From: Bacteroidetes bacterium QH_1_64_81
Lineage (GTDB): Bacteria; Bacteroidota; Rhodothermia; Rhodothermales; Salinibacteraceae
Direction of reading: 5' to 3'
DNA length: 10,998 bases
NCBI GenBank assembly: GCA_003022655.1
Contig: PXSX01000358.1
Location: 3,138 to 14,135, forward strand
The translations under genes were made by a program, and so were the position numbers. Position 1 is the stretch's first letter; the number at the start of each line of letters is the position of its first letter. The notes under the pieces are model-generated. The model did not search any database and was not told the origin of the DNA. It was given only the letters and a program-made list of their open reading frames with translations. Shown in pieces: positions 8,101-9,333 of this stretch.

Positions 8101-9333
8101 CTACGTTGTGCCGTACGGGGCCGAGCTACTGGTCGAGGAGGGCCGGGAGGTTGATGAAGACGAAGTCTTGGCAAGTTGGGACCCTTACAACAGTCTCATC
8201 CTCACCGAGGCCAATGGAACGGTTCACTTCGAGGACGTCATTGAAGGCACGACCTATCGGGAGGAGACCGACCAGCAGACCGGCCACATGGAGAAGGTCA
8301 TCGTGGAGAGCCGAGAGCGCACCTTGACGCCCGCGATCGTCGTCGAGACCGAAGACGGGGACGAGCGAGAGTACAACATGCCGGTCGATGCCCGCATTCA
8401 GGTCGAAGAGGGCGAGACGGTGCAGGCCGGCCAGACGCTCGCGAAGATGCCGCGACAGGCGGCCCAGACCAGTGACATCACGGGAGGCCTTCCCCGCGTC
8501 GAGGAGCTCTTCGAGGCGCGAACCCCGGATGAGCCCGCCGTCGTGAGTGAGATTGACGGCATCGTGAGCTTCGGCGATCAGAAGCGTGGCTCGCAGGAGG
8601 TCATCGTCTCCAGCCGCGACGGAGAGATGGAGAAGAGCTACATGGTCTCTCTGTCGAAGCACATGCTGGTGCACGAAGGGGATTACGTGGAGGCGGGCGA
8701 CCGGCTCTGCGACGGCCAGATTGCCCCGCACGACATCCTGTCGATCAAGGGCCCGCGGGCCGTGCAAGAGCACCTGCTCAACGAGGTGCAGGAGGTCTAC
8801 CGCCTCCAGGGCGTCGACATCGACGACAAGCACTTCGAGGTCGTGATCCGGCAAATGATGAAGCGGGTCGAGATCACGGAACCGGGCGACACCCACTTCC
8901 TGGAAGGGCAGAAGGTGGATCGCCAGAAGATGGCCAACGTCAACGACGACCTTTACGACCAGTTTGTCGTCACGGACCCGAGCGACGCGGACATCGAGAT
9001 TGGCGAGGTCATCAGCCGTCGCGAGCTTCGGGAGATGAACTCCGATCTGAAGCGCGAAGACAAGCCAGAGGTCGAGGTCCGCGAGGCGCGGCCCGCTGTG
9101 GGCGAGCCCGTGCTGCTCGGCATCACGAAGGCTTCCCTGGCTACGGACTCGATGATCTCGGCGGCTTCGTTCCAGGAGACGACCAAGGTGCTTACCAACT
9201 CGTCCATCCGGGCCCGGACGGATCCCTTGGAGGGCCTGAAGGAGAACGTGGTCGTGGGGCACTCGCTGCAGGCGACGGAGCGCCGAGCGAGGAAGACGTG
9301 GAGCAGATTGAGGCCTCCGGCTCCGAGAACTAA
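5111..9333 (+). CDS. rpoC: DNA-directed RNA polymerase subunit beta', 3' frameshift
   Basis: The beta' subunit carries the catalytic Mg2+. From Met 5111 ([10 protein letters not shown]) all hallmarks are present. Zinc site 1 is C66, C68, C81, C84. The active site NADFDGDQM has D474, D476 and D478. MADSGARGS starts at 716, the bridge helix lies at about 764-800, and zinc site 2 is C812, C886, C893, C896. The trigger loop ends at R931 and H934. An SI3-like insert spans about 943-1118, before [17 protein letters not shown]. After [10 protein letters not shown] (to H1384) the expected LIPAGTG is lost: only 14 nt (9263-9276) stand where 18 are expected, and the frame slips by -1. The other frame then encodes [18 protein letters not shown] and TAA at 9331, giving an ancestral length near 1408 (E. 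coli 1407). As written, the frame instead continues in phase to 10924. An alternative TTG start at 4997 would add 38 residues read from the spacer hairpin and is rejected. Confidence 0.93.
6383..6420 (+). other. rare-codon patch with perfect inverted repeat inside rpoC
   Basis: Codons 425-436 of rpoC ([12 protein letters not shown]) use ATT, TTA, GAA, ATA, GGA, AGA, CCT, GTA and TTG, in a gene that otherwise prefers C- or G-ending codons. By eye this is the only TTA and the only ATA in rpoC. Within it, ATACAGG (6398-6404) and CCTGTAT (6410-6416) form a perfect 7-bp inverted repeat with loop GAAGA. It can extend to 11 pairs through G.U wobbles and one further G-C pair (6394-6420). The protein sequence itself is the normal conserved one, so only the DNA/RNA level is odd. 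Confidence 0.45.

Follow-up and report, generated by a model that had tools for sequence, protein, structure and literature searches.

The closest systems available for comparison are the intact rpoC genes of L108 (genome G020), P0002, P0004, and P0007, which are the same gene as the one found in the 10,998-nucleotide stretch of DNA analysed here, hereafter the window. L108 was the nearest relative compared and was used as the reference for the junction and for codon differences. As in the window, a DUF92 gene lies next to rpoC in L108, and the C-terminal residues of L108 and P0007 are those encoded by a remnant of the old reading frame in the window. All four genes differ from the window in possessing a 118-nt block with the IPAGTG motif (IPSGTG in P0002) and an in-frame stop, and in showing no fusion to a neighbor. 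A second type of comparison is offered by assembly-derived false pseudogenes, and assembly errors have been reported as the origin of many putative bacterial pseudogenes (PMC11017572). Like these, the window has a broken frame in a gene that otherwise looks constrained; it differs from them in the 118-nt block involved, and a technical cause is here only probable. The third comparison is P0023 (source jgi), the only one of 120 listed proteins with a likewise isolated loss of frame at the rpoC 3' end. Its lesion is located elsewhere and the start of the motif is kept, marking an independent event. It was noted that P0023 leaves the frame directly after IPAGT and continues into a basic, Arg/Gly-rich tail, and this loss is probably a sequence error too.

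The window carries a ribosomal protein gene, rpoB, rpoC, and a DUF92 gene, whose coordinates are listed in Table 1 together with the features around the rpoC end. All of Rpb1 domains 1 to 5 were found in the window RpoC, which places it among the beta' subunits, and an alignment with P0007 of 1390 columns gave 93.2% identity and 2 gap positions. The downstream product was assigned to DUF92 by a score above the Pfam gathering score. The named close RpoC homologues in the protein search come from metagenome-assembled genomes called Bacteroidetes bacterium QH_10_64_19 and Salinivenus sp., which are halophiles near Salinibacter. At its 3' end the window gene departs from other beta' genes, as no PAGTG-type motif followed by the gene's own in-frame stop was found after KEN.

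Table 1. Coordinates of genes and features in the window, with the evidence or details for each.
Feature	Position	Strand	Details
Ribosomal protein L7/L12 gene	109-492		
rpoB	1133-4996		
rpoC, in-frame part	5111..9265	+	Start MPYGNS...; 1385 codons; Pfam Rpb1 domains 1-5
Deletion junction	9264..9265	+	118 nt (L108 232-349) absent; blastn, 12-relative alignment, length differences
Remnant of original rpoC 3' end	9265..9333	+	-1 frame; TAA 9331-9333
Frame-shifted stop-free linker, rpoC to next gene	9266..9448	+	61 residues, basic
G+C-rich terminator-like hairpin, rpoC-DUF92 gap	9363..9398	+	Alignment consensus and fold
DUF92 (PF01940) integral membrane protein gene	9449..10924	+	ATG 9449; Pfam 163.1 bits, cut-off 27.5

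The earlier note on this DNA had reported that rpoC loses its frame at the C-terminus, and this was borne out: the last codon in the normal frame is 9263-9265, and the 61 residues that follow are basic (12 K/R and 4 D/E, compared to 3 K/R and 14 D/E in the 61-residue tail of L108). Through blastn, positions 9034-9264 were matched to L108 1-231 (91.3% identity over 231 nt) and positions 9265-10641 to L108 350-1725 (94.1% over 1378 nt). Both flanks match L108 and the break at 9264/9265 is clean, so that the missing block is far beyond chance; the absence of 118 nt relative to L108 is near certain. The alignment with the 12 closest relatives placed the break at the identical position. The distance from GLKENV to the stop is 98 nt in the window and 216 nt in L108, so that the window is again 118 nt shorter; when all 12 closest relatives were measured, it fell short by 118 nt (eight relatives), 115 nt (three), or 121 nt (one), all of which give one and the same frame error. 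The absent block comprises approximately 39 codons in total, including the conserved IPAGTG, and in the 12 closest aligned relatives 54-56 further residues follow the motif, of the kind QREYRDLVVGSKSELEELQAAIGGDG. The earlier count of 14 nt standing where 18 were expected, a shortage of 4 nt, is thus superseded by the comparison with L108; the accompanying view that the lesion is not a plain homopolymer slip is correct.

No microhomology with L108 was found at the junction (a few nucleotides at most if the strain's own bases differed), so the loss is not a simple collapse of a repeat. L108 has a direct repeat of 12 nt in two near-identical copies 49 nt apart (298-309 and 347-358), which ends at the far break. 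An inverted repeat near the ends of the block was also considered as a hairpin mechanism for the deletion and rejected as too weak (20 nt, 70% complementary).

We assessed how widely the missing segment is kept. A broad scan of genome contigs returned at least 598 stretches, from which 80 loci were kept (best 82% identical among the matches listed), and the motif and an in-frame stop were present in all 80 of these loci among the matches listed. Closer relatives were drawn from the family of G001, where 24 of 27 genomes yielded a total of 26 loci and three gave no match. Motif and in-frame stop were found in 25 of the 26, covering 24 genomes with two loci sharing one genome; the exception, L109, covers just the 5' part of a gene whose remainder is L108. 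Three distant loci on viral contigs were left out of the counts. The exact junction pattern occurred in none of the 27 family genomes. Among the 120 listed proteins (7999 scored) the motif was intact in 119, with P0023 as the exception, and the IPAGTG segment was aligned in three solved beta' chains (9n9p, 8dkc, and 5uh5). Searches of the open-licence literature for loss of the beta' IPAGTG tail returned no account. The alternative posed beforehand, a sequence or assembly error or a tolerated altered tail, was sound in its breadth; its second branch is disfavored by the conservation of the motif at the 3' ends of relatives, where a comparison had been proposed. rpoC is an essential, single-copy gene, and loss of the IPAGTG segment from such a gene is unlikely to be borne.

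The old frame survives beyond the junction. It had been claimed that the -1 frame reads an acidic tail of the right length; the old frame and its stop are there, but the length is not, as only a 22-codon remnant is left (69 nt with the stop, counted from 9265). Compared to L108, the remnant differs at 3 of 69 nt, all third-position changes that leave the old-frame protein unaltered but are non-synonymous in the new frame. This points against selection on the new frame, although three differences are a small sample. Directly upstream, 19 of 20 codon differences between positions 9034-9264 and L108 are synonymous. With 19 of 20 synonymous before the break and three of three fitting the old frame after it, the gene appears to have been constrained to its original end, and the substitution pattern of the remnant, few as the three differences are, suggests that the deletion is recent. 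Elsewhere in the window, of the codon differences between rpoC positions 6584-7920 and L109, 74 are synonymous and 20 non-synonymous, and the DUF92 gene showed 18, 15, and 36 differences from L108 at codon positions 1, 2, and 3. Judged from these substitutions, both regions are under constraint that is weaker than directly upstream of the junction. A Gly run at 7346-7378 varies in length in frame; the form in the window RpoC also occurs in L109, and among the 120 listed proteins nine carried the window's form and 18 another form.

The shifted frame has its first stop at 10924, so that beta' runs in frame into the DUF92 gene as a read-through ORF of 1937 residues from Met 5111. This run through the DUF92 gene had gone unnoticed in the earlier note. 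The spacing between the two genes is 115 nt in the window and 114 nt in L108. Of the 24 relatives examined, 14 carry a DUF92 match after rpoC, and two of these matches are partial (L100 and L101); L107, one of the ten with no match, ends 47 nt after its rpoC stop and is uninformative. A G+C-rich hairpin lies in the gap between the genes. Its consensus helix across 9 aligned sequences has 13 pairs, 2 of these pairs being changed on both sides, and the segment 9350-9415 folds at -37 kcal/mol (z -2.72; 4 of 200 shuffled sequences folded equally well). In contrast to the folding and the alignment, a consensus terminator and promoter scan of 9200-9560 found none. A T-rich run follows the hairpin in several relatives, and the hairpin probably terminates the rpo operon.

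A single ORF spans 5111 to 10924, and each of the two partners is otherwise recognizable in it, which raises the question of a functional fusion. In such a fusion a shortened beta' would continue through a basic linker into the membrane protein DUF92, and RNA polymerase would be tethered to the membrane. One relative lends this some color: L085 has the window's frame relation, and its DUF92 frame is open upstream past the rpoC stop. In the other four relatives sharing that relation, however, the DUF92 frame is not open upstream. Over the 14 relatives with both genes the frame relation is spread across its three values (4, 5, and 5) and differs between the window and L108, and a segment like the linker is open in the needed frame by chance in approximately 21% of Markov-1 resamplings. 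The conserved hairpin separates the genes, the conserved motif is lost, and the three remnant differences suit the old frame. A second RpoC-DUF92 fusion was found neither in the 27 family genomes, searched for the exact junction, nor among proteins, searched with no positive control. In these protein searches, run without a positive control, neither the fusion part (7987 scored) nor the shifted tail (139 candidates) had a relative at E <= 0.001, and no protein sharing the Arg/Pro-rich tail was seen. The window's own RpoC was missing from the 120 listed protein matches (7999 scored), and the database may therefore lack this strain. The in-frame fusion is, in our reading, accidental, and a functional role for it seems very improbable. 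Programmed ribosomal frameshifting, which would bring the ribosome back to the old tail, is more improbable still; it would explain the preservation of the old-frame remnant with its stop, but recency accounts for this as well, relatives read through the site with no shift, and the missing 118 nt with IPAGTG could not be restored in this way.

An assembly or sequencing misjoin in the contig is the likeliest cause, and we consider it somewhat probable. The missing block relative to the relatives, the change of frame, and the read-through ORF are observed. The absence of 118 nt near the rpoC 3' end removes IPAGTG and approximately 39 codons, shifts the frame, and bypasses the rpoC stop, and the path into the DUF92 gene happens to be open. 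The organism itself probably keeps an intact rpoC. The break against L108 is single and clean, and the technical cause is favored because motif and stop are conserved in relatives, the exact junction occurs in none of the 27 family genomes, the protein searches found no relative of tail or fusion, and the gene looks constrained up to its old end. A real illegitimate deletion fits a junction lacking microhomology just as well, which counts against the misjoin. Such a genuine and very recent deletion in the sampled cell or population is possible but less probable. It would leave no working beta' and would be carried by a minor lineage or one that is dying out, or next to intact cells. The near-blunt junction resembles that of an illegitimate deletion, the 12-nt direct repeat permits two steps (69 nt in frame and then 49 nt), and the substitution pattern of the remnant is consistent with recency. 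Against it, an essential gene would be broken in the consensus, the two-step route is less simple than one 118-nt event, and the junction is absent from the 27 family genomes.

Since the relatives have the 118-nt stretch, the tail lesion is best read as an error of assembly or as a non-functional mutation of very recent origin, and new biology is the less likely reading. If the cause is technical, the case is a caution that a loss of 118 nt in an essential gene can yield a striking false ORF joining RNA polymerase to a membrane protein. If the allele were real, the conserved C-terminal segment of beta' would be dispensable, and RNA polymerase would be able to work while tied to a membrane protein. 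That a living bacterium possesses a beta' lacking IPAGTG and fused to DUF92, with its RNA polymerase held at the membrane, is highly doubtful.

One further rpoC tail was noted among the listed proteins. P0077 is a 1413-residue RpoC that extends approximately 90 residues beyond the usual end. The extension contains a run rich in proline and a hydrophobic part (ILIGAMLIVILAIVLF) that looks membrane-like by eye only. P0077 is a possible second case of rpoC read-through into a neighboring gene.
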